This document shows, in pieces, positions 970 through 13,264 of a stretch of 13,264 bases of DNA. The first letter of the stretch is position 1, and every line of letters starts with the position of its first letter. Position numbers and translations under genes: made by a program. Source of the stretch: Chloroflexota bacterium. GTDB taxonomy: Bacteria > Chloroflexota > Limnocylindria > Limnocylindrales > CSP1-4. The stretch spans positions 1-13,264 of the forward strand of contig JAJYDP010000062.1 of assembly GCA_021777365.1 (NCBI GenBank), in the 5' to 3' direction. The notes beneath the pieces were generated by a model. It saw nothing but the letters and a program-made list of their open reading frames with translations, searched no databases and was not told the origin of the DNA.

Positions 970-3309
970 ATGAACGCTCGAATCCGGCTCCTCGCCGCCG
1001 TCGCCTCCCTCGTGCTCGTGGCCGCCTGCGGCTCGGCGACCACGGTGCGCCTCAGCCCACCCGCGGTCGGCCCCACAATCAGCAACCTGCCCTCGCCAGC
1101 GCCGTCGGCACTCGGCATCAGCACGGGTCCGCTGCCCTCGGCGACGTCCGCTGCGGCGGGTTCGGTCGACCGCGTGGGCGTCTTCCCGGGTGGTTTCTGG
1201 GCCACCCGGGGCACGAAGCTCCTCATTTCCGCCGACGGTGGGACGAGCTGGAGGGCCGGCACGCTGCCGTCGCCCTCGCCGCTCGCGGTGGACGTCCTCG
1301 ACGCGCGCCACGCCTGGGCGGTGTACCCGGTCGGCGCCACGGAGACCGGGCAGGCCGGCCGGAGCAGCGACGTGCTGCAGCTGTTCGTCTTCCGGACCAG
1401 CGACGGCGGCACCACCTGGGACGCGGCGAAGCTGACCGAGAACGTGGCCGACTCGATCGTCGTGCCGGCATTCCGCGATGCCGAACACGGCTACATCCTC
1501 GCGTCCGCTCTGCGCCAGAGCAGCGGGGTCAGCTCGCTCCTCGCCACCAGCGACGGGGGCGCCACCTGGGCCCCGGCCGGCCAGGGCGCCTGGCTGGGCG
1601 CCGAGTTCGGCACCGGGCCTGAGGGCACCCTCTGGGCGGGCAGCGAGCCCACCGCGGGGCCCGAGCAGCGCCCCCTCCTCGACGTCAGCCGCGACGGCGG
1701 GCAGCACTGGACCGACGCCCGGCTGCCCGGCCTGGTGGGCGCCACCGGCGCGCGCTACTCGCTTCTCGGACCACCCTCGTTCTTCGGCACGCCGGGCGTG
1801 GTGGCGGTCCTCGACGAGTCGGGATCGGCGCAGATCGTGCGGATCTTCACGAGCGCAGACGGCGGGCGGGCGTGGACGCAGGCCGCGGACCTCGGCCGGA
1901 GCGATCTCGCCTCGTTCGCCGTGCCGCTCACGTTCGCCGCCGCCGGACCATCGCGCTGGCTCGTCGGCGGGCTCGACGGCGCATCCCTGCGCGTCACGGG
2001 CGACGCCGGGCGCACGTGGCGCGACGTGCCCGCCGACGGGCTCCCGGCAGGCATCACCGGCCTCCTGTTCGCCGACGCCTCCCACGGAGCCGCGGAGGTC
2101 GCGCCTGACGATGCGCTCTACGTCACCGCGGACGGGGGGATGACGTGGACGCCGGCGTCCCTGGCGCCGTCTGCCGCAGCTTCGCCGGGACCGGGCGCCT
2201 GGACCGGCCTGCGCTGGAGCGCGCCCGCCGTGCTTCCGAAGGGCGACGCGCGCTATGCCACGCCCGATGACGTCGTGGCGTGGGCGGGCGGCTACGTCGC
2301 CGCCGGCTTCCTGCAGTACGACGGCGGCGATGCGCCCGCCGCCTGGTGGTCGGCGGACGGTCGCAGCTGGACACGGGCCGTGGCGGGCCACACGCAGCCC
2401 GCGGCGTCGATGCGCTGGCTCGCAGCGCTCGGCGACCGGCTGGTGGCGATCGGGACGGGAGGCGCTCCGGTGTGCACGGCACCCGGCCCCGGGGAGACGT
2501 GCGCCCCTCTGCCGGTGCTCACCTGGACCAGCCCGGACGGGCGCACCTGGACAGAGGGGCCGTCCGCGGCCACATTCGGCGGCGCCACGATCGCTGCGGT
2601 CGCCGCGGGGCACGGCCGGATCGTGGCCGTTGGAGACACGGGCTTCGACCATCCCGCGATCTGGACCTCGACCGACGGGACGACGTGGACCCGGGAGGCC
2701 CTGCCCGCTGCGACGTTCGCACAGGCGCACCCAGGAGCCGTCGTCGCGTTCGCCGGCGGGTTCGTGCTGGCCGGTGGAGTGGGCGGTGTGCAGCCGCCCA
2801 GCGGCGGCGTGGTGCCCAACGTGCTCTCGTCACCGGCGATCTGGGTCTCGGCGGACGGCCTCTCCTGGCGGCGGGCGAACCTCGCCGACCCGGCGAACGC
2901 CGGGCAGGTCGTGACGCTGGTCGCAGGCGCCGATGGCCTGCTCGCGGTCGGCCCCACGCCGACCGGCTACACGGCGGCCGTCTGGACCTCCGGCGATGGG
3001 CGGACCTGGACCCGCCTGTCGGATCCGAACGTGCTACCCGGCGGGTCGATCGCCTCGGACGGGCGGCACATGATCGCTCAGGTCTACGTCAGCGACGATC
3101 GGGTCTCGTTCTCGGCGTCGAGCGACGGCACGACCTGGCAGCCGCTGGCGGACACCGGCGCCACGGCCACCATGCCGCGCTGGCCGGGCCCGCAGAACCC
3201 CACCATCTCGGCGGTCCGCGTCACCCCCAGCGGGCTCATCGTCCTCGGCTCCGACGGGCGCGACGGCAGCTCGCCGATCTGGGTGGCGCCCGCGGTGGTC
3301 GGGCCGTGA
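970..3309 (+). CDS. Lipoprotein with two tandem Asp-box beta-propellers (gene B)
   Basis: This is a predicted lipoprotein of 779 residues. The ATG at 970 was chosen because it gives an N-terminus of Arg residues, a hydrophobic core and the lipobox V-A-A-C with Cys20; upstream in-frame starts would bury the signal peptide. Residues about 80-400 carry canonical Asp boxes (S/T-x-D-x-G-x-x-W, mostly 'DGG') near 86, 143, 193, 240, 295, 343 and 390, as in sialidase/BNR and YCF48-type propellers. Residues about 410-779 carry a different, one-residue-shorter motif (W-x-S-x-DG-x-x-W) six times, near 459, 519, 565, 625, 672 and 715. No sialidase catalytic set was identified, so a binding or sensing role is more likely than enzymatic activity (inference). 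Cys502 and Cys511 could form a disulfide loop before the second short motif. No good Shine-Dalgarno is visible. Its stop overlaps the next start. Confidence 0.88.
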   Translation: MNARIRLLAAVASLVLVAACGSATTVRLSPPAVGPTISNLPSPAPSALGISTGPLPSATSAAAGSVDRVGVFPGGFWATRGTKLLISADGGTSWRAGTLPSPSPLAVDVLDARHAWAVYPVGATETGQAGRSSDVLQLFVFRTSDGGTTWDAAKLTENVADSIVVPAFRDAEHGYILASALRQSSGVSSLLATSDGGATWAPAGQGAWLGAEFGTGPEGTLWAGSEPTAGPEQRPLLDVSRDGGQHWTDARLPGLVGATGARYSLLGPPSFFGTPGVVAVLDESGSAQIVRIFTSADGGRAWTQAADLGRSDLASFAVPLTFAAAGPSRWLVGGLDGASLRVTGDAGRTWRDVPADGLPAGITGLLFADASHGAAEVAPDDALYVTADGGMTWTPASLAPSAAASPGPGAWTGLRWSAPAVLPKGDARYATPDDVVAWAGGYVAAGFLQYDGGDAPAAWWSADGRSWTRAVAGHTQPAASMRWLAALGDRLVAIGTGGAPVCTAPGPGETCAPLPVLTWTSPDGRTWTEGPSAATFGGATIAAVAAGHGRIVAVGDTGFDHPAIWTSTDGTTWTREALPAATFAQAHPGAVVAFAGGFVLAGGVGGVQPPSGGVVPNVLSSPAIWVSADGLSWRRANLADPANAGQVVTLVAGADGLLAVGPTPTGYTAAVWTSGDGRTWTRLSDPNVLPGGSIASDGRHMIAQVYVSDDRVSFSASSDGTTWQPLADTGATATMPRWPGPQNPTISAVRVTPSGLIVLGSDGRDGSSPIWVAPAVVGP

Positions 3310-5672
3310 CCGCGCACGATCCGTCGGCGCACGTGGCCAGGCGGGGACCGCGCACCACGCGACAGGCGCTTCGTCGACGAGCCGGCCTGGCGAGCGCCGT
3401 GCTGCTCGTCGCCGCCTGCGGAGGTCGAGCGCCGTCGGCCACCCCGTCGCCAGCGCCGCTCGTGCCGGGCTCGTCGCTCGGTGCTGCGTCCGTCGCGACC
3501 ACGGGCACGCCGGGCGCGCCGGTGTTGGCGATCGGGGTCCCGCTGCTGGTGGGCCAGCACACCGGTATCAAGGCCGCCCTCGCCGACAGTGCCAGCGGCC
3601 CGGTGGTGAGCGTCTACGAGCCACAGCTCGCGGTGCCCGGCCCGCTGCCCCTCGGGTCGGGCCAGCCCGTGGGCTGGAACTGCCCGGCGAGCCCGGTTGG
3701 CCTCGTGGGCGCCTCATCGGTCAGCTGGACCACCGCCGGCCAGTCCATCCTCGCGCTCGCCGGGGATGCCTCGGCCCCAGGACCCGTGGGCATCGGGTTC
3801 ACGCCCGACTGCGCCCGCACCACGGTCCTCGCGCCGCATTCGGCGACGTCCTGGGCGGCGTCCGTTGCGCCGTCCATCCTGAACGCCGGGGTGTGGTTCC
3901 TCGGCATGAAGCCGGGTGACCCGAACACCGTCGTCGCCTGGTCGCCGGCCACGGGGCAGCTCGCGATGAAGGGCGGCTTCGAGTCCTGGACCGGCGACGG
4001 TGGGCGCACCTGGACCAGCGGCGAGACCGATCCGGCGATCCCGGCGGGTTGGGACTGGTCCGGCGCGTTCTGGCAGGTCGGGCCGGGGAGGCTCGTCGCC
4101 TCGCGCGGTCCTGGGTTCAGCGTCGATCCTGCCGCGTCGATCCCGACGGACATCACCTGGGATCCGACGGCCGGGCAGGTGCCGCCGCTGATGGCGACCG
4201 GCGTCTTCCGGGACCGCGTGCTCTTCGGTGGGCGGGACGCGGCCCTCGAGTCGGTGGCTACCGACGGCTCCGGGATCACGCGCCTCCCCATCGCCACCTG
4301 GCGCATCTCCGCGGGGTCGCGGTTCGTGGCTGCCGAGGGGAGGGACCTCGCCACCGGCGCCCCCACCCTCGCGGTCTCGTCCGATGGGGTGCACTTCGCG
4401 AGCGTCGCCCTGCCGGCCGAGTTCGCGCAGGCCCCGACCGACTCGGTCGCGCTGCTCGCGCTCGACAACCGGGTGCTACTGACCGACCGGTCTGCGGTCG
4501 CCGATCCGCGCGGGGCGGCCATCCACGTCTGGTCGGTCCCGGTGACAGGCGCGCCTGCATCTCCGCCATCGCCCACCCCGATCCCGACGCCGTCGATCCC
4601 GTCTCCGCCGCCCGCCGAACTGACCTCGACCTGGACGCCGGTGACGCTCCCGAGCGTGCTGTCGGTCGATGCCTTCGGCGGCCCGGGCGGCGGGTTCTCC
4701 GCCCTGCCCGGCGGCGGCTTCATCGATTTCGTCCCGGCCCCTCCCACGCGGACCCTCGTCTTCACCTCGCTCGACGGCTCGCGCTGGATGCAGGTCGGCG
4801 AGGTGACGGGCACGGACGCGCACGGCATCTCCGGGCCGGTAGCCAGCGACGGCCACGTCTTCGTGGCCCTTGGCTCCGAGCAGGGAGGCCAGGGCGGCTA
4901 TGGCATGCAGCAGAACGGCGCGACGTGGGTCTCGCGCGACCTGCGCAGCTGGACGAAGGCGCCCCACCAGGCGGCGTTCGGGGGCGCGGAGTTACACGCC
5001 ATCGCGGCGGGCCCCGCGGGCTTCGTCGCGACCGGGTTCGACCAGGGCGGCCAGTCGATATGGACCTCGCCCGACGGGCTCCACTGGTCTCTCGTGACCA
5101 GCGACCAGCCATCGGCGAGCGACACGGTCGAGGCGACCGCAGTCATCTACAGCCGGGGCGAGTTCGTGATGGTGGGCCGCCTCGACAACGACGCGGCTGC
5201 GTGGACATCGCTCGACGGCCGGCACTGGACCATCCACGCGCCGCTGCCGGGCGGCTCGGACGTGGTGCTCGAAGGGCTCGCATCGACGCCGTCCGGCTTC
5301 CTCTCGCTGGGCACCGGCGGCCCGCAGGTGGAGGTGTCGCCCGGCGTGTTCCTCTCGCCCGTCGCGCCGTGGACCTCGACCGACGGCGCGAGCTGGATCT
5401 CCGGACCGTCGAGCCCGGCCCTCTTCGGCGCCTACCCGACGCTCGTGTCGGCCCCGGGGGGCTTCGTCGCGGCCGGCACGGTCGGCTCGACGGGCTCCGG
5501 ACTCTGGACCTCGCGCCACGGGACCGACTGGGTGCCGGTGGCCGGCGTGCCGCTGGTACCCGCCGACCAGCTGCAGTCCCCGCAGCTGCTCTCGGACGGA
5601 CGGCACGTCCTCCTGATCGAAGCCGGCCCGAGCGGCCGGACCGCTCTCGTGTCGGGCGGGCTGACGCGATGA
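3306..5672 (+). CDS. Lipoprotein with C-terminal six-repeat WTSxDG propeller (gene C)
   Basis: This is a predicted lipoprotein of 788 residues starting at GTG 3306, whose GTGA overlaps the stop of gene B (TGA 3307-3309), so translational coupling is likely. An in-frame GTG at 3333 is an alternative. A basic N-terminus leads to a hydrophobic stretch and the lipobox V-A-A-C (Cys38 from 3306). Residues about 45-415 form an unrecognised beta-rich region with one canonical Asp box near 229-236. A Pro/Ser/Thr-rich linker lies at about 418-438. Residues about 440-788 carry six short Asp-box-like motifs near 486, 541, 586, 633, 689 and 734; the second and the last are degenerate (RDLRS and RHGTD). 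The layout of anchor, domain, Pro-rich linker and six-repeat propeller mirrors the sigma-linked protein at 11046. The ligand is unknown. The stop overlaps the next ATG. Confidence 0.87.
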   Translation: MTAHDPSAHVARRGPRTTRQALRRRAGLASAVLLVAACGGRAPSATPSPAPLVPGSSLGAASVATTGTPGAPVLAIGVPLLVGQHTGIKAALADSASGPVVSVYEPQLAVPGPLPLGSGQPVGWNCPASPVGLVGASSVSWTTAGQSILALAGDASAPGPVGIGFTPDCARTTVLAPHSATSWAASVAPSILNAGVWFLGMKPGDPNTVVAWSPATGQLAMKGGFESWTGDGGRTWTSGETDPAIPAGWDWSGAFWQVGPGRLVASRGPGFSVDPAASIPTDITWDPTAGQVPPLMATGVFRDRVLFGGRDAALESVATDGSGITRLPIATWRISAGSRFVAAEGRDLATGAPTLAVSSDGVHFASVALPAEFAQAPTDSVALLALDNRVLLTDRSAVADPRGAAIHVWSVPVTGAPASPPSPTPIPTPSIPSPPPAELTSTWTPVTLPSVLSVDAFGGPGGGFSALPGGGFIDFVPAPPTRTLVFTSLDGSRWMQVGEVTGTDAHGISGPVASDGHVFVALGSEQGGQGGYGMQQNGATWVSRDLRSWTKAPHQAAFGGAELHAIAAGPAGFVATGFDQGGQSIWTSPDGLHWSLVTSDQPSASDTVEATAVIYSRGEFVMVGRLDNDAAAWTSLDGRHWTIHAPLPGGSDVVLEGLASTPSGFLSLGTGGPQVEVSPGVFLSPVAPWTSTDGASWISGPSSPALFGAYPTLVSAPGGFVAAGTVGSTGSGLWTSRHGTDWVPVAGVPLVPADQLQSPQLLSDGRHVLLIEAGPSGRTALVSGGLTR

Positions 5673-8338
5673 GCGCGGGCGTCGATCGACGTCACGGCCG
5701 GTGGGTCCCGCTCGCCGCGGCCACGGCCGTCGGCATCCTGCTCGCGGGCACGCTCCTCGCCGCCGTCCTGCAGCACCCGGTGGTGCCCACGGGAACGCCG
5801 TCGCGCGTGAGCCCGACGTCGTCGCCCGCCGGATCCCCGTCCGCGCCCGCGGCCACCCTTGTCGATCGCGTCGCCGGCACGTTCTCCGGGGTCAGCTGGT
5901 CGCCTGATGGGCGCGCCTTCCTGGCCATCGTCCAGGCCAGCGATGGCACGAGCGACGTCCGCGTGTATGGCGCCGATGGGCGCCGGCTCTGGGTCGAGCC
6001 CGGATCGGGGGCAACCTGGGTGGACGCGACGCACGTCGCGGTCCTCGTGCCCGACGGACCGGTCGTCGTCTGCAGCACGGACGGCTCGTCGCGGATCACC
6101 ATCGCGGGGTCCTGGCGCGCCGTGTTCGGGAGCGGTCACGGGGCACTCGCACTGCTCGCCTCGCCGGGCGCCCTGCCGGGTGCCACGTTCACTGTCTGGC
6201 GCCTCGACGGCACCCGGAGTGCCCCGGAGCCCGGGATCCCGGCGGCGTGGTCGCCCGACGGCAGCCGCCTCGCGTACTGGCTCTCGCTCGTCACCGGTCA
6301 GGGGCGCACGCAGCGCCCGATCGTTTTCGCGGCGACCGGAGCGCCGACGCGCGCAGTTCTGGCGGTCCTCGACCAGGAGTCGATGGGCCAGGTGATCGCC
6401 TTCCCGGCGCATCCGCTCGACGGGCGGACGCCGGTCGCCTGGAGCCCGGACGGACGCTGGATCGCGGGCGACCTGGCCGGCCAACCTTTGGGCCCCGTCG
6501 TCCTCGGCGTGCCGTCCCCCCGGGCCGATCCGAGCGTGGCGCCCGCGGTCGTCTCGCTCCCCGCCAAGCTCCACCTCGCCGGCTGGACCAGCGACAACCG
6601 GCTGCTGCTCGCGTACATGGCGCAGGCCGCGACCTGGGGCAGTGCGACGCGGACGCTCAGCGCGGGTTTGCCCCCTGGCGCACGCGCCATGGCGGACCCC
6701 TGCGGCCGCACCCTGCTGCTCGACGCCACCGGTCGCGCGATCGGCACCGTCTCCAGCGACGCGTCGGGCTTCGCGTTCCTCGGTCCACCCGTCCCCGCGA
6801 TCTCGCCCGACGGGACCCTGCTCGCCGAGCCCAGTTGTGCGGATACCGCGAGCGAGCTCCTCCTCGCCAGCGTCGCCGCGCTCGCTCCGGCGCCCGCGCC
6901 CTCGCCGCTCGCGCTCGCATCGTCCACGTCCCCGCCGCCGGTCGTGGCGGCCAGTGGCTGGCCGGTCGCCCTCCCCGGCGACGGGACGTCGACGCCTGTC
7001 CTCGGGGCTGACGGGACGCTGTACGTCGCGGTACCCGATCAAGGCACGCGCCAACCCTGGGGCCTCTTCGCCTTCGACGCGAGCGGCCACGTCCGCGCGG
7101 GCTGGCCATACCGCTTGCCCGCCGCTGGGCCGTCGATGAAGCTCGTGGCTGCCCCGGACGGCACGCTCTACGTCGGCGCCGCGCAGGAGATCGTCGCGCT
7201 CGGGCCCGACGGCGCACCCCGCCCGGGCTGGCCGGTCGCGCTGCCGTCCACCCTGACCGGGATGGTCCTCGCCGCTGATGGCACCCTCTACGCGGAGTCC
7301 TGGTCCGCGGGCCAGGGCGACACGCTCACCGCGCTCGGGCCCGACGGTCGGACCAAGGCCGGCTGGCCGGTGTCGCTGCCCGCGCCCGGCGCCCAGCTCC
7401 TCGTGGCGCCCGACGGCACCGTGTACGACATGGGCGAGGTCAGCAGCTGGCCCAACGAGACGATGCGCATCAGCGTGCTCGACCCCTCCGGGCTCCCGAA
7501 GGCCGGCTGGCCGATCACCCTGCGCGGGGCGGAGCCGGGGATGGCTCTCGCGCCTGACGGCACCCTCTACGCCTGGTGGTTCGAGGGTACGCCGGGCAAG
7601 GTCGCCGGCTGGACCATCGCATCCACGCATGTCGAGGCCCTGGGCCTCGACGGACGACCCAACTCGGGATGGCCGGTGACGCTCGCCGGGCTCGCCTCGG
7701 TGCCCGCGTTCGGCGCGGATGGTACCGCCTACCTCACGCTCGGCTCGACGCAGGGCGGCACCGGCGCCGTGCTCGCGCTCGACCGCACCGGCCACACGCT
7801 GCACGGCTGGCCGGTCCGCCTGCCCGACGGCCTGCGGGGGTTGTGGGCGCTCGACGCGCAGCCCGGCGGGATCGGGAACGCGCGGCCGCCCGTGGTCGCG
7901 GCCGACGGGACGCTCGTCCTGGGCGTGTGGCACGCGAGCGCCGGCGGGACGCTCGGTGCGGAGGGCACGATCCTGCTCGATGGGCGCTCCGGGACGGTGC
8001 TCACTGGCTGGCCGGTCATGCTGCCGGCGGGCACCATGTTCGCGCGCTCCGCTCCCAACGCGGTCCCTGGTGGGGCCGAGCTGCCGCCGGCCCTGCGGAG
8101 CGCCGGCGGGATCGCCTATGCACGCATGCTTCCCGGCGGCGGCTGGCAGGTCGAGGCCCACGACCGCCAGGGCCGGCTCGTGTCGGGCTGGCCGCAACGG
8201 CTCCCCCTTGCCACCGTGCCCGCCTGGCTCGGCCTGGGGCCTGGCGACCGTCTCGTCGTCGAGGCGGTGCCCCTCGGCGGGACGGATCAGCGCACGATCC
8301 TGAGCGCCTTTGACCCGCTCGGGGGCGTGGCGCGGTAA
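5669..8338 (+). CDS. Membrane-anchored protein with a PD40-like propeller and nine GWP repeats (gene D)
   Basis: This protein has 889 residues. The ATG at 5669 overlaps the stop of gene C as ATGA; the same frame stays open far upstream, but that extension lies inside gene C and is rejected. A basic N-terminus precedes one hydrophobic helix (about 13-34) with no lipobox, giving a signal anchor or uncleaved signal. A Ser/Pro-rich spacer follows. Residues about 70-400 contain W-S-P-D-G motifs near 77, 194 and 258 and I-S-P-D-G near 378, typical of PD40/WD40-like (TolB-type) propellers. An Ala/Pro-rich linker at about 405-429 leads to nine G-W-P motifs at residues 430, 478, 520, 565, 613, 667, 713, 780 and 840, usually GWPVxLP, each paired with a D-G-T-[LAV]-Y/V-type strand, resembling PQQ-like quinoprotein repeats. 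Two propellers displayed outside the membrane is the likeliest reading. No enzymatic residues were recognised. Confidence 0.88.
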   Translation: MSAGVDRRHGRWVPLAAATAVGILLAGTLLAAVLQHPVVPTGTPSRVSPTSSPAGSPSAPAATLVDRVAGTFSGVSWSPDGRAFLAIVQASDGTSDVRVYGADGRRLWVEPGSGATWVDATHVAVLVPDGPVVVCSTDGSSRITIAGSWRAVFGSGHGALALLASPGALPGATFTVWRLDGTRSAPEPGIPAAWSPDGSRLAYWLSLVTGQGRTQRPIVFAATGAPTRAVLAVLDQESMGQVIAFPAHPLDGRTPVAWSPDGRWIAGDLAGQPLGPVVLGVPSPRADPSVAPAVVSLPAKLHLAGWTSDNRLLLAYMAQAATWGSATRTLSAGLPPGARAMADPCGRTLLLDATGRAIGTVSSDASGFAFLGPPVPAISPDGTLLAEPSCADTASELLLASVAALAPAPAPSPLALASSTSPPPVVAASGWPVALPGDGTSTPVLGADGTLYVAVPDQGTRQPWGLFAFDASGHVRAGWPYRLPAAGPSMKLVAAPDGTLYVGAAQEIVALGPDGAPRPGWPVALPSTLTGMVLAADGTLYAESWSAGQGDTLTALGPDGRTKAGWPVSLPAPGAQLLVAPDGTVYDMGEVSSWPNETMRISVLDPSGLPKAGWPITLRGAEPGMALAPDGTLYAWWFEGTPGKVAGWTIASTHVEALGLDGRPNSGWPVTLAGLASVPAFGADGTAYLTLGSTQGGTGAVLALDRTGHTLHGWPVRLPDGLRGLWALDAQPGGIGNARPPVVAADGTLVLGVWHASAGGTLGAEGTILLDGRSGTVLTGWPVMLPAGTMFARSAPNAVPGGAELPPALRSAGGIAYARMLPGGGWQVEAHDRQGRLVSGWPQRLPLATVPAWLGLGPGDRLVVEAVPLGGTDQRTILSAFDPLGGVAR
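6956..8203 (+). repeat. Nine GWPVxLP repeats encoded in gene D
   Basis: The Gly codons of the G-W-P motif are at 6956, 7100, 7226, 7361, 7505, 7667, 7805, 8006 and 8186, giving spacings of 48, 42, 45, 48, 54, 46, 67 and 60 codons. The first copies are regular and the last ones longer. At DNA level the ggctggccggt core recurs nearly unchanged in several copies. The spacing fits one propeller blade per repeat. Confidence 0.8.
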
Positions 8339-10445: not shown

Positions 10446-10470
10446 GAACCTTCCGCGCGCGTCCGTCGTC
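10446..10470 (+). promoter_or_regulatory. Candidate ECF-sigma promoter upstream of the sigma gene
   Basis: GAACC (10446-10450) is followed after 16 nt by CGTC (10467-10470), matching the general ECF pattern of a GAAC-type -35 and a CGTC-type -10 at 15-17 nt spacing. It lies 27 nt before ATG 10498, which would suit autoregulation by the encoded sigma factor. CGTC occurs three times within these bases, so chance is a real alternative. Confidence 0.42.
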
Positions 10471-10497
10471 TGGACGTGTATGGTCGGCAGGGAGGCG

Positions 10498-11049
10498 ATG
10501 GTGGCGGACCGGGAGGACAGCGGGGGCCGCAGCGAGGCCGAGCGGGCGGCCGCGTTCGCGCGCCTGACAGACCGTGCCCTGGCGCCCTCCTACCGGCTCG
10601 CGGCGCTGCTGCTGGGCAGCGAGATCGAGGCCCAGGACGCGGTGCAGGACGCCGCCCTCCGCGCCTGGGACCGCTTCGCCGACCTGCGGGACCCGGCGCG
10701 CTTCGAGGCCTGGTTCGGGCGCATCCTCGTGAACGGCTGCCGCGACCGGCTGCGGCAGCGCCGGCGGGTGCGCACGCTGCCCATGGACTACGTCCCCGAC
10801 CTGCCGGCACCCGACGGCCTGCCGCGCCTCGTCGAGCGCGACGCCCTGCGCCGTTCGCTCGCCGAGCTCACCGCGGACCAGCGCACGGTCGTGGTCCTGC
10901 ACTACTTCGCCGGCCTCTCGCTCGAAGAGGTGGCCGAGCACACCGGTGCGCGGCCCGGCACGGTGAAGTCCCGCCTGCACGCCGCGCTCGCGGTGCTCCA
11001 CGCCGCCTACGACGCGGCCCAGCGCACCGGCGGGGGGAGTCTGCGATGA
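10498..11049 (+). CDS. ECF-family RNA polymerase sigma factor (gene G)
   Basis: This sigma-70 family ECF regulator has 183 residues from ATG 10498 and would redirect RNA polymerase to specific promoters. Region 2 spans about residues 14-90, with the typical D-A-V-Q-D-A-A-L-R-A-W segment (47-57, core polymerase binding) and an F-x-x-W-[FL]-x-x-I-L-x-N segment (69-79), then a basic stretch. A short Pro-rich linker follows. Region 4 (about 112-168) has L-T-x-D-Q-R and a helix-turn-helix with G-L-S-x-E-E-V-A and G-T-V-K-S-R-L (139-160), which reads the -35 element. AGGGAGG (10489-10495) precedes the start. ATG 10480 and GTG 10501 are alternatives, since the spacing to ATG 10498 is short for the full motif. 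The TGA overlaps the next ATG as ATGA, and the partner gene encodes a membrane protein, the usual sigma/anti-sigma arrangement. Confidence 0.93.
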   Translation: MVADREDSGGRSEAERAAAFARLTDRALAPSYRLAALLLGSEIEAQDAVQDAALRAWDRFADLRDPARFEAWFGRILVNGCRDRLRQRRRVRTLPMDYVPDLPAPDGLPRLVERDALRRSLAELTADQRTVVVLHYFAGLSLEEVAEHTGARPGTVKSRLHAALAVLHAAYDAAQRTGGGSLR

Positions 11050-13058
11050 ACGACGAACGGTTCGAGCGCGACCTCCACGCGGTGCTCGAGGCGCTGGCGC
11101 CACGGGACGTCCCGGCCGAGCTGCGCGCCGCCGTGGCGGCCGTCCCGCAGCGGCCCGCCCGGCGCTGCCGGCGCTGGCAGGGGCGCCTCCTCGCGGCCGC
11201 CGCTGCGGTGGTGATCCTCGCGGCCGCCGCGCTGGTCGCGATCCTTGCCCGCCCGGCGGTGGGGCCGGGGTCGGCGCTGCCCACGCCCCACAGCGCGCTC
11301 GTCAGCGGCTTCGTCGAGCAGACCGACGGGCTCTACGGCTACCGCATGCTGCGCCCCGCGAACTGGACACCCGAGGGAGGCGGACTGCCGTTCGGTCGTG
11401 GGTACTTGGCGCCCGGCTTCGAGGGCACGCAGGTGCAGGGGATCGTCATGACGGTGGTGAACCTGCAGGTGGCCGGGGAGGCCGCGGAACCGACCGGCAC
11501 CATCGGGGACTGGGTCCTGTTCGGGCAGCACCCGACCCTCCAGGCCTGGACGGCCGCCATCGAGGCGGGCTGGAGACGCGACGGCTGGGGCTTCACGCTC
11601 CTGCGCTCGCTGCCCACGGCGAAGATCTACGCGCTCACCTCGCTCGGCGGCAGGCCGACACCCGTCCTCGTGCTGTCGGCCTACGCGATCGCCGAGGGCC
11701 AGCCGTTCCTGCTCCAGCTGCAGGGCAGCGGCACGTACCGGGATCTGACCCGGCTGGAGAGCGACGGTGTCCTCGACGACTTCGCCACGATGGTGGCGAG
11801 CATCCGGGCGGTGCCACCCGAGGCACAGAACGTCGCGCCGCCCCTCCCGACCCCGGCGTCGCCGGAGCCGTACCAGCCGACGGCTCCTCCCGGCCCATCG
11901 CCCGTGGCCTCGTTCGCGCTGCCCTCGACGCTCGGCGCCTTCACGACACCGGTCCCCCCGGCGGCCGACGTCCCCTGGACCGGCATCCGCTGGACGCGCC
12001 TCGCGGCCGGTGATCCGCTCGCGCAGGTGCGCTCGGTCGTGCGCTGGAGCGGTGGCTTCCTCGCTGTCGGCCTCGACCAGCAGGGCCCGAGCGGCTGGTG
12101 GACGCCCCTGTGGCGCTCGAGCGACGGGGCCCACTGGCAACCCCTGGGCCCCGTGCTGGGAACGAACGCGCTCGTGCTCGGCGTGGCGGCGGGAGGTCAG
12201 CTCGTGGCGTTCACCGCTGCCGGCGGCACCGCATCGTGCCCGCCGTCGATGTGCGGCAGCCTGTACGGCCCGATCACGTCGTGGACCTCGGCGGACGGCC
12301 TGGCCTGGATCGCCCACGCCGGTCCGGACCTGCCGCTGCCGCCCGACGGCGAACCGCACGTCTCGCTTGCGGGCGGGCCCGCCGGTGCGGTCGCCGCGTT
12401 CGCGCCTGTCTCGGGCGGGGCCGACCTGACGGCCCGGGTGGCGACCTCGCCCGACGGCGTCACGTGGTCGCTGCTGCCCCTTGCCGCCTTGCCGGCCGAC
12501 ACGCTCCTCTGGGACGTGCACGCCACGGCGGCCGGGTTCGTCGCCGCGGGGCGCACGTGGCCGGCCGGCGGCTCGATCACCGGGAGCCTCGCGCTCACCT
12601 CGCGCGACGGCCGCACCTGGACGAGCACGCCGCTGCCCATCGCCGCCGACCGCGTGGCGCTGGTCGATGGACTCCTCCAGGGCGCGGGCGGCTTCCTCGC
12701 CACGGGCTCCGACTACGGGCTGCTGGGGACCACCCTCTGGTGGCGCTCGAGCGACGGCCGGACCTGGCAGGCGCTGGCGGACTATCCGCCGCTCGGCACC
12801 TGCCCGATCGCCGTCTGTGGTCCGGACACCCAGCCCGAGGGCGACCTGGGCGCCGACGGCACCCGCATGGTGGCCTATCGCGGCGGCACCGATCCGGGGG
12901 TGTGGACGTCCGCCGATGGCCGATCCTGGAGCCGGCTCGCGGAGCCTGGCACCCCGCTCTCGGTATTCCAGGCGAGCGGCGAGCTCGTCGTGCTGCCCGA
13001 TGGCGTGCTCCTGACCGACGGGTCGACGACCTGGTTCGGGCAGGCGCAGACGCGCTGA
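11046..13058 (+). CDS. Transmembrane putative anti-sigma protein with extracellular propeller (gene H)
   Basis: This 670-residue protein starts at ATG 11046, overlapping the sigma stop, with GGGGGGAG 7 nt upstream. Residues 1-46 form a short, mostly helical tail ending in an Arg-rich stretch (36-47), followed by one Ala/Val-rich helix (about 47-68). By the positive-inside rule the tail is cytoplasmic and the rest extracellular. The tail lacks the His-x3-Cys-x2-Cys zinc motif of ZAS anti-sigmas, so the anti-sigma role rests on gene order and topology. Residues about 95-255 look like a PsbP/Mog1-type domain (G-Y-x-M-x-x-P-x-x-W start; a strand then 'DDF-x-x-M-V-x-S-I' at the end), which is an inference. 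A Pro-rich linker (257-292) leads to six W-x-S-x-DG-x-x-W-type motifs near 356, 413, 466, 517, 566 and 620. Two C-P-x-x-x-C loops (398/403 and 586/591) could be disulfides. A ligand-sensing membrane regulator is the favoured role. Confidence 0.86.
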   Translation: MNDERFERDLHAVLEALAPRDVPAELRAAVAAVPQRPARRCRRWQGRLLAAAAAVVILAAAALVAILARPAVGPGSALPTPHSALVSGFVEQTDGLYGYRMLRPANWTPEGGGLPFGRGYLAPGFEGTQVQGIVMTVVNLQVAGEAAEPTGTIGDWVLFGQHPTLQAWTAAIEAGWRRDGWGFTLLRSLPTAKIYALTSLGGRPTPVLVLSAYAIAEGQPFLLQLQGSGTYRDLTRLESDGVLDDFATMVASIRAVPPEAQNVAPPLPTPASPEPYQPTAPPGPSPVASFALPSTLGAFTTPVPPAADVPWTGIRWTRLAAGDPLAQVRSVVRWSGGFLAVGLDQQGPSGWWTPLWRSSDGAHWQPLGPVLGTNALVLGVAAGGQLVAFTAAGGTASCPPSMCGSLYGPITSWTSADGLAWIAHAGPDLPLPPDGEPHVSLAGGPAGAVAAFAPVSGGADLTARVATSPDGVTWSLLPLAALPADTLLWDVHATAAGFVAAGRTWPAGGSITGSLALTSRDGRTWTSTPLPIAADRVALVDGLLQGAGGFLATGSDYGLLGTTLWWRSSDGRTWQALADYPPLGTCPIAVCGPDTQPEGDLGADGTRMVAYRGGTDPGVWTSADGRSWSRLAEPGTPLSVFQASGELVVLPDGVLLTDGSTTWFGQAQTR

Positions 13059-13132: not shown

Positions 13133-13264
13133 TCACCCCGGTCCGATCTCCTCCCAGGTCGCGCCGCCGTCGGTGGTGCGGTACAGACGTCCGACGAGCC
13201 CGAGCGCCCAGCCGTCGGTCGCGGACACGAACGAGACCGGCTGCACGCCCTCGATCGACGCCTA
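13133..13264 (-). pseudogene. C-terminal end of a YCF48/Asp-box protein, interrupted
   Basis: On the minus strand, 42 codons ending at TGA (13135-13133) read as a blade of the YCF48/BNR type: a strand 'PVSFVSATDGWALG', then R-L-Y-R and the canonical Asp box T-T-D-G-G-A-T-W, closing with a short acidic/Gly tail. This is too short for a protein, and the frame is broken by TAG at the very edge of the window (13264-13262), just before the blade. Either the gene has an in-frame stop or frameshift and is a remnant, or the blade belongs to an upstream frame that cannot be seen here. GTG 13246 is the only possible local start and has no obvious role. The Asp box has the canonical 'DGG' spacing, unlike the short motif of gene H. 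Confidence 0.5.

Follow-up and report, generated by a model that had tools for sequence, protein, structure and literature searches.

RESULTS

Genes G and H and the promoter motif upstream

The window described here, 13,264 nucleotides of Chloroflexota DNA (contig JAJYDP010000062.1), contains two overlapping genes on the forward strand that form the subject of this study: gene G (10498..11049), which encodes an extracytoplasmic function (ECF) sigma factor of 183 aa, and gene H (11046..13058), which encodes a 670 aa single-pass membrane protein of anti-sigma type and overlaps G in the sequence ATGA. Gene G had been called a standard ECF sigma factor from the DNA letters and their translations (the original prediction), and profile searches agreed: Pfam Sigma70_r2 (residues 32-90), Sigma70_r4_2 (residues 115-165) and TIGR02937 all scored above cut-off, as otherwise did just overlapping sigma-70 models, while TIGR02983 reached 124 bits, under its cut-off of 141.55. 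The product of G thus has sigma2 and sigma4 domains only, the composition of the ECF (group 4) sigma factors.

An ECF-type promoter motif can be read from the forward strand at 10446..10470, with GAAC at 10446-10449 and CGTC at 10467-10470 separated by a 17-base spacer; its position favours ATG 10498 over ATG 10480 as the start of G, and AGGGAGG at 10489..10495 (+) is the probable ribosome-binding site of ATG 10498. In the 170 nt that precede the sigma match, GAAC-N15-18-CGTC was present for 63 of 144 relatives, compared with 5 of 288 control windows taken from genes (mononucleotide-shuffled upstream regions: mean 1.5 of 144, maximum 5); the less strict AAC-N15-18-CGT was present for 73 of these relatives and in 32 of the control windows. 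These counts leave out 4 of 148 pairs with less than 170 nt upstream, and the windows begin at the sigma profile match rather than at a proven start. Promoters of the AAC/CGT type are known for ECF sigma factors, among which autoregulation is described as common (PMC8103513), and GAAC-N17-CGTC ahead of G fits both descriptions; the motif at 10446 is likely autoregulatory. Both this motif, a candidate AAC/CGT promoter, and the ATGA overlap with H, the candidate anti-sigma gene of the same putative operon, are present in the sequence. Two further instances of the motif in the window, at 1483 (+) and 9945 (-), both fall within open frames and look like chance.

Residues 1-46 of H (11046..11183) form a cytoplasmic tail that is probably sigma-binding, as judged from AlphaFold2, conservation across the tail family and covariation with sigma factors; AlphaFold2 placed two helices in it, at residues 4-16 and 24-31, at low confidence (block pLDDT 49-68). 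The tail leads into a transmembrane helix at residues 45-67 (11178..11246; predicted helix and hydrophobic sequence), an extracellular PsbP-fold domain at residues 86-255 (11301..11810; AlphaFold2 model, Foldseek match to PsbP 2xb3), a Pro-rich linker at residues 262-306 (11829..11963) that is predicted to be disordered (pLDDT <50), and a beta-propeller with six S-x-D-G-x-x-W motifs at residues 310-670 (11973..13055), all on the forward strand. AlphaFold2, Foldseek and the sequence bear out the layout that had been proposed for H, and the reported lack of a zinc-binding cytoplasmic motif also stands, H-x3-C-x2-C being absent from residues 1-130. A photosynthetic role for the PsbP-like domain was rejected, as the fold would be its sole basis. 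Also rejected were the possibilities that H is an artefact of assembly or gene calling, because near-identical copies exist (P0001, 99%; P0002, 85%) and other genomes show the same arrangement, and that H is a one-off protein, because relatives were found.

The tail family

A protein search with H returned 13 proteins (P0001-P0013). The PsbP-like domain is 54-84% identical in P0002, P0004-P0008 and the genomic loci L001 and L002, and 39% identical in P0009. Tail and PsbP-like domain are followed by other ends in P0004-P0008 (a PSII_BNR propeller in one, a SecDF P1 head in four), and in P0011 and P0013 the tail and propeller are present but the PsbP-like domain is missing. In P0009 and P0010 the PsbP-like domain instead follows a zinc-finger-like N-terminus with the motif HVAACPEC, for which zf-HC2 scored 20.2 and 20 bits, slightly below the cut-off of 22.2; the genomic context of P0009 was not recovered, each of the matches in 22 of 298 genomes covering part of the protein only. 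The tail alone, used as query, matched only P0001, P0002 and P0012, and in the last of these (named Paceibacterota) it is fused in frame to a P-type ATPase; P0012 is probably an assembly chimera and was set aside.

Genome scans with H as a single protein gave no relatives, whereas an alignment found five Chloroflexi loci. A tail profile found matches in 67 of the 151 genomes sampled from one Chloroflexota class (that of genome G003) at E≤1e-3, 67 of 177 genomes of this class at 1e-5 and 22 of 301 genomes across the phylum at 1e-4, with up to 9 matches per genome in these scans. A profile search with 32 full-length relatives returned 617 proteins, and the tail is present in all 120 of those listed. 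Three of the 120 carry an organism name, in each case 'Candidatus Limnocylindrales bacterium' (an order of Limnocylindria), and the class in which the family expanded is probably Limnocylindria. Where named, the listed proteins are 'photosystem II stability/assembly factor-like', 'sialidase family' or hypothetical; "anti-sigma factor" occurs in none of the 120 names.

Pairing with ECF sigma genes

Removal of 19 duplicates left 153 non-redundant tails, and 148 of these are preceded by an ECF sigma gene in the same orientation. The tail match lies within 30 nt of the sigma stop in 132 of the 148 pairs, and the ATGA overlap is the commonest spacing (53/148). The five tails without a sigma gene are L003 (contig start), L114 (near the locus end), L100, L116 and L136. 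The searches used the tail sequence alone, yet 15 of the 19 seed rows of tail profile A4 had been retained after the sigma neighbour was seen; leaving out 17 seed pairs, 131 of 136 tails are still paired. In genomes G001-G003, L026 (at a contig start), the weak match L032 and another weak one in L028 likewise lack a sigma neighbour, and none of eight weak re-scored tail matches in two genomes outside the group had one. At L003 (1-4377, genome G003) the units lie in tandem, a SecDF-head tail protein whose start is lost at the contig edge being followed by a second ECF sigma gene and then by a tail protein whose propeller is of another kind.

A census was also taken from the sigma side in six genomes picked for several tail matches, so that its fractions do not stand for the whole class. 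It took 163 of 215 PF08281 matches and, once 25 non-ECF sequences (by profile) and 3 at contig ends had been dropped, covered 135 ECF sigmas, 60 of them followed by a tail-type protein (15 in G036, 13 in G150, 12 in G096, 8 in G003, 7 in G128 and 5 in G139). The others are followed by a membrane protein with a short N-terminus (28), by one with a longer N-terminus (23) or by a zinc-type protein (12), or are without a membrane partner (12); the zinc and transmembrane classes come from simple motif and hydropathy rules, and the profiles used for tails and sigma factors derive from the pairs themselves. The 28 short-N-terminus proteins missed by the tail profile (L196, L197, L204-L209, L222, L230, L253-L256 and others), one of which begins MTDNYESRLRARLGALERAVP, are possibly further short-tail families. 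A published survey that discarded domains of less than 50 residues ties 72% of Chloroflexi ECFs to class I domains (PMC7406223).

Covariation of tail and sigma factor

Mean-field direct coupling analysis was applied to 148 and to 177 pairs, with helix 1 defined as tail positions 3-18 and helix 2 as positions 20-38, and with sigma2 ending at residue 95 and sigma4 starting at residue 108; a coupling was called fitting if it joined helix 1 to sigma4 or helix 2 to sigma2. With 177 pairs the best couplings (sigma-tail, window numbering) were Y32-P23, A29-V22, Y171-F6, Q46-E25 and L121-L10, the first non-fitting one being L77-E4 (sigma2-helix 1), and the top score was 2.50 compared with 1.60 for the highest of 31 shuffles. 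Fitting couplings made up 8 of the best 10 (shuffle mean 4.9, maximum 9), 15 of 20 (10.3, 16), 23 of 30 (14.9, 21) and 32 of 50 (24.8, 33). With 148 pairs they made up 9 of 10 (shuffle mean 5.05, maximum 7 of 40 shuffles; Fisher p 0.033) and 20 of 30 (shuffle mean 14.5, maximum 19). Random halves gave 8 and 7 of 10, 15 and 11 of 20, and 19 and 14 of 30. The domain pattern (helix 1 with sigma4, helix 2 with sigma2) offers a better, if moderate, argument for contact than does coupling strength.

A co-fold of one relative, for whose alignment 18 of 101 rows misplaced in a trial alignment were left out, gave a model with the sigma factor closed, which is no proof of contact. Its best structural match was SigW held by RsiW; the structure searches with the co-fold matched sigma chains, and none matched the tail to an anti-sigma chain.

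Exchanged outer domains and neighbouring genes

Pfam domains were surveyed in 122 of 130 full-length tail proteins. BNR (22), Sortilin-type (22), PSII_BNR (19), BNR_2 (11) and DUF4232 (6) were the most frequent, and Kelch (3), PD40 (2), AMIN-like (2), PepSY (2) and the SecDF P1 head (1) were rarer; these counts overlap, and many tail proteins, H included, have no match. One tail carries many outer domains, and the sensor is not bound to the tail. Since at least three Asp-box-like motifs are found in just 30 of 130 full-length tail proteins (1 of 130 when shuffled), the six-motif propeller of H is one sensor type of several. Among the 25 of 35 Pfam families listed for the 122 proteins there is no anti-sigma family. 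In NCBIfam (25 of 28 families listed), 16 of the 122 proteins matched NF052375, 'anti-sigma factor', at E≤0.01, and one matched a 'putative anti-sigmaE protein'; of ten tail proteins rescanned, two matched NF052375 over tail and transmembrane helix, at 17.6 and 19.3 bits against a cut-off of 100. This sequence similarity is a weak pointer to an anti-sigma identity.

Four genes precede G on the forward strand: A (9-935, extending past the left edge of the window), B (970-3309), C (3306-5672) and D (5669-8338), B, C and D being joined by 4-base overlaps. Their products show homology to outer domains that tail-type proteins carry in other genomes: A to L076 (49% over 317), B to L035 (61% over 486), C to L027 (72% over 470), and D to L017 (40% over 475) and L003 (37% over 397). 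The tail itself is absent from B, C and D, B and C having lipoprotein-like starts and D a transmembrane helix after just about 12 residues. On the reverse strand, 13140-13264 encodes the C-terminal end of a BNR/Ycf48-like protein that enters from the right edge (SATDGWALG...RTTDGGATWEEIG). A lone PsbP-like domain of the H type, again with a lipoprotein-like start, was seen at L351, in a genome belonging to a different class of Chloroflexota (the class of G005).

DISCUSSION

The short tail as a probable grip on the sigma factor

We consider it very probable that G and H are a sigma/anti-sigma pair belonging to a short-tail family that has expanded in one Chloroflexota class, and that the tail holds the sigma factor in a class II, CnrY-like grip that is released by an outer signal. 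What was computed is the architecture, the overlap of the two genes, the pairing seen in other genomes, the exchange of sensors, the promoter motif and the covariation; binding, inhibition, release, a ligand and autoregulation are our inferences. Our current working model is that, at rest, the two helices of the 46-residue tail would wrap around G, the first lying against sigma4 and the second against sigma2, and that G, closed in this manner, could not load onto RNA polymerase. Binding of an extracellular ligand or partner by the PsbP-fold and propeller domains would then be signalled across the single transmembrane helix, through either intramembrane proteolysis or a conformational change, and G would be freed by regulated proteolysis as in RsgI or by a conformational switch as proposed for CnrY. 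Free G would transcribe its own operon from GAAC-N17-CGTC in a positive feedback, and probably other genes too.

The original prediction had drawn the anti-sigma role from overlap and topology, and had asked whether homologues of H mostly lack a neighbouring sigma gene. They do not (148/153; 131/136 without seeds), and this pairing, together with a partly domain-specific covariation, supports the role. Its description of the tail as unusually short is apt next to class I domains (zinc, RskA-like) but does not suit the six tail-containing genomes, where such tails are the commonest membrane partner (60/135 compared with 12/135 of zinc type). A propeller-based sensor likewise describes H itself and not the family, in which the same tail bears many other outer domains and the PsbP-like domain also stands behind zinc-finger-like N-termini (P0009, P0010). 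Of the anti-sigma families with which it had suggested comparing the tail, none is among the Pfam families listed (25/35), and NF052375 matched 16/122 weakly, far under cut-off where scanned.

Several observations temper this reading. With 148 pairs the excess of fitting couplings is not significant beyond the best 10 (Fisher p 0.17 for 14/20, 0.14 for 20/30 and 0.25 for 30/50), coupling strength partly reflects co-inheritance, and SigG1, even with no anti-sigma present, is likewise a match of the closed co-fold. Moreover, covariation and pairing demonstrate a partnership and not the sign of its effect, and the tail could in principle bind G as a co-activator, or as a membrane tether that aids the folding or action of G. 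Pro-sigma activity of this kind is known from FecR-like proteins. We nevertheless regard such a role as quite improbable for H: the predicted closed sigma resembles inhibited complexes (with the same SigG1 caveat), an anti-sigma-type zinc-finger-like N-terminus replaces the tail before the same sensor in P0009 and P0010, whose sigma neighbours were unseen, and the two-helix tail of CnrY, which embraces sigma2 and sigma4, is described as inhibitory (PMC4598750). Slightly less probable still is that H is a surface propeller protein, co-transcribed as a target or output of G, with the tail as an ordinary signal-anchor. That such domains can be outputs is indicated by genes B, C and D, which bear related outer domains with neither a tail nor an intervening sigma gene, but a plain signal-anchor would not need to be conserved while the outer domain is swapped, to accompany a sigma gene in 148 of 153 cases and to covary with it.

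A different question is whether the tail, as an anti-sigma domain, is of class II or is a shortened class I domain that has lost helices and zinc, which would alter its ancestry and grip but not its function. The contacts of helix 1 with sigma4 and of the last helix with sigma2 are reported as common to both classes (PMC7406223), the best structural match of the co-fold, SigW with RsiW, is a class I complex, and the weak NF052375 similarity is in keeping with such an origin. A length of about 46 residues with two predicted helices, set against a class I mean of 101 +/- 33 (PMC7406223), and the absent zinc motif make a reduced class I domain rather unlikely, and we prefer the class II, CnrY-like grip.

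It is interesting to speculate further that the tail, of about 45 residues and with a consensus of approximately FERxLRxxLxxxAxxxAPxxLRxRVxxIP, constitutes a class of ECF anti-sigma domain in its own right, hitherto undescribed, and has become a main module of ECF control in one Chloroflexota class, with at least 15 pairs in some genomes and swapped sensors that, among those recognized, are mostly propellers; tail-less lipoprotein copies such as genes B and C would then be co-sensors, decoys or outputs. This we hold to be a real possibility, though short of probable. A description of the tail family was not found among the titles or abstract openings listed for open-licence PMC papers on ECF/anti-sigma factors, propellers, Limnocylindria, other Chloroflexota or Planctomycetes. 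The lineage is little cultured, and much of its extracellular sensing may use sigma/anti-sigma pairs that databases do not recognize. If the tail is a separate class, a modular system of one grip and many sensors would be concealed under 'photosystem II assembly factor' and 'sialidase' annotations. A profile of the 45-residue tail would turn such names into signalling annotations and enable ligand discovery by propeller type. The natural swaps, with a zinc-type or a short-tail grip before one sensor (P0009 and H) and many sensors behind one grip, would make it possible to test directly how a sensor is coupled to its grip, and the short tails may serve as compact anti-sigmas for synthetic circuits.

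Comparison with known systems

Domains of class I, of class II (CnrY) and of class III are all reported to have a dual sigma2/sigma4 interface (PMC7406223; for CnrY also PMC4598750 and PMC8103513). Class I anti-sigmas (ChrR, RskA, RseA, RsiW) are, like H, often encoded beside their ECF sigma factor, and their domain binds sigma2 through helix 4 and carries H-x3-C-x2-C in about 56% of members (PMC7406223). H differs in having no zinc motif and a tail of about half the mean length, with two predicted helices rather than approximately 100 residues and a helix 4; in P0009 and P0010 a zinc-finger-like N-terminus fronts the same PsbP-like sensor. The outer domains of H share their folds with PsbP, an extrinsic protein of photosystem II, and with BNR/Ycf48-type propellers, which does not imply a photosynthetic role.

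Short two-helix anti-sigma domains are already known in class II, with CnrY as the example. In CnrY/CnrH of Cupriavidus metallidurans (PDB 4CXF) two helices clasp sigma2 and sigma4 from outside; the tail of H has two predicted helices that covary moderately, helix 1 with sigma4 and helix 2 with sigma2, and the co-fold of a relative has a closed sigma. CnrY is described as having no sequence similarity to NepR (PMC4598750), and tail profile A4, run on the full set of PDB chains (E≤10), matched four chains with no anti-sigma, and so no CnrY or NepR, among them. The sensor of CnrY is a separate protein, CnrX (PMC4598750), whereas H has its own PsbP-like and propeller domains.

By analogy, H resembles RsgI in layout and probably CnrY in grip. 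RsgI, the partner of SigI in Clostridium thermocellum, likewise has a short N-terminal intracellular domain (residues 1-54 of RsgI6), a transmembrane helix and a variable C-terminal sensor (PMC12203970). It differs in binding the C-terminal domain of SigI and in having a self-cleaving periplasmic domain. The membrane-proximal domain of H is a PsbP-fold by Foldseek, and G matches ECF-type models above cut-off, with no SigI model among the 25 of 92 NCBIfam families listed for it. RsgI sensors include carbohydrate-binding and hydrolase domains, while the recognized sensors of the tail family are mainly propellers. With nine paralogues in the C. thermocellum genome (PMC12203970), RsgI nevertheless appears to follow the same logic as the tail family, that of one grip serving many sensors.
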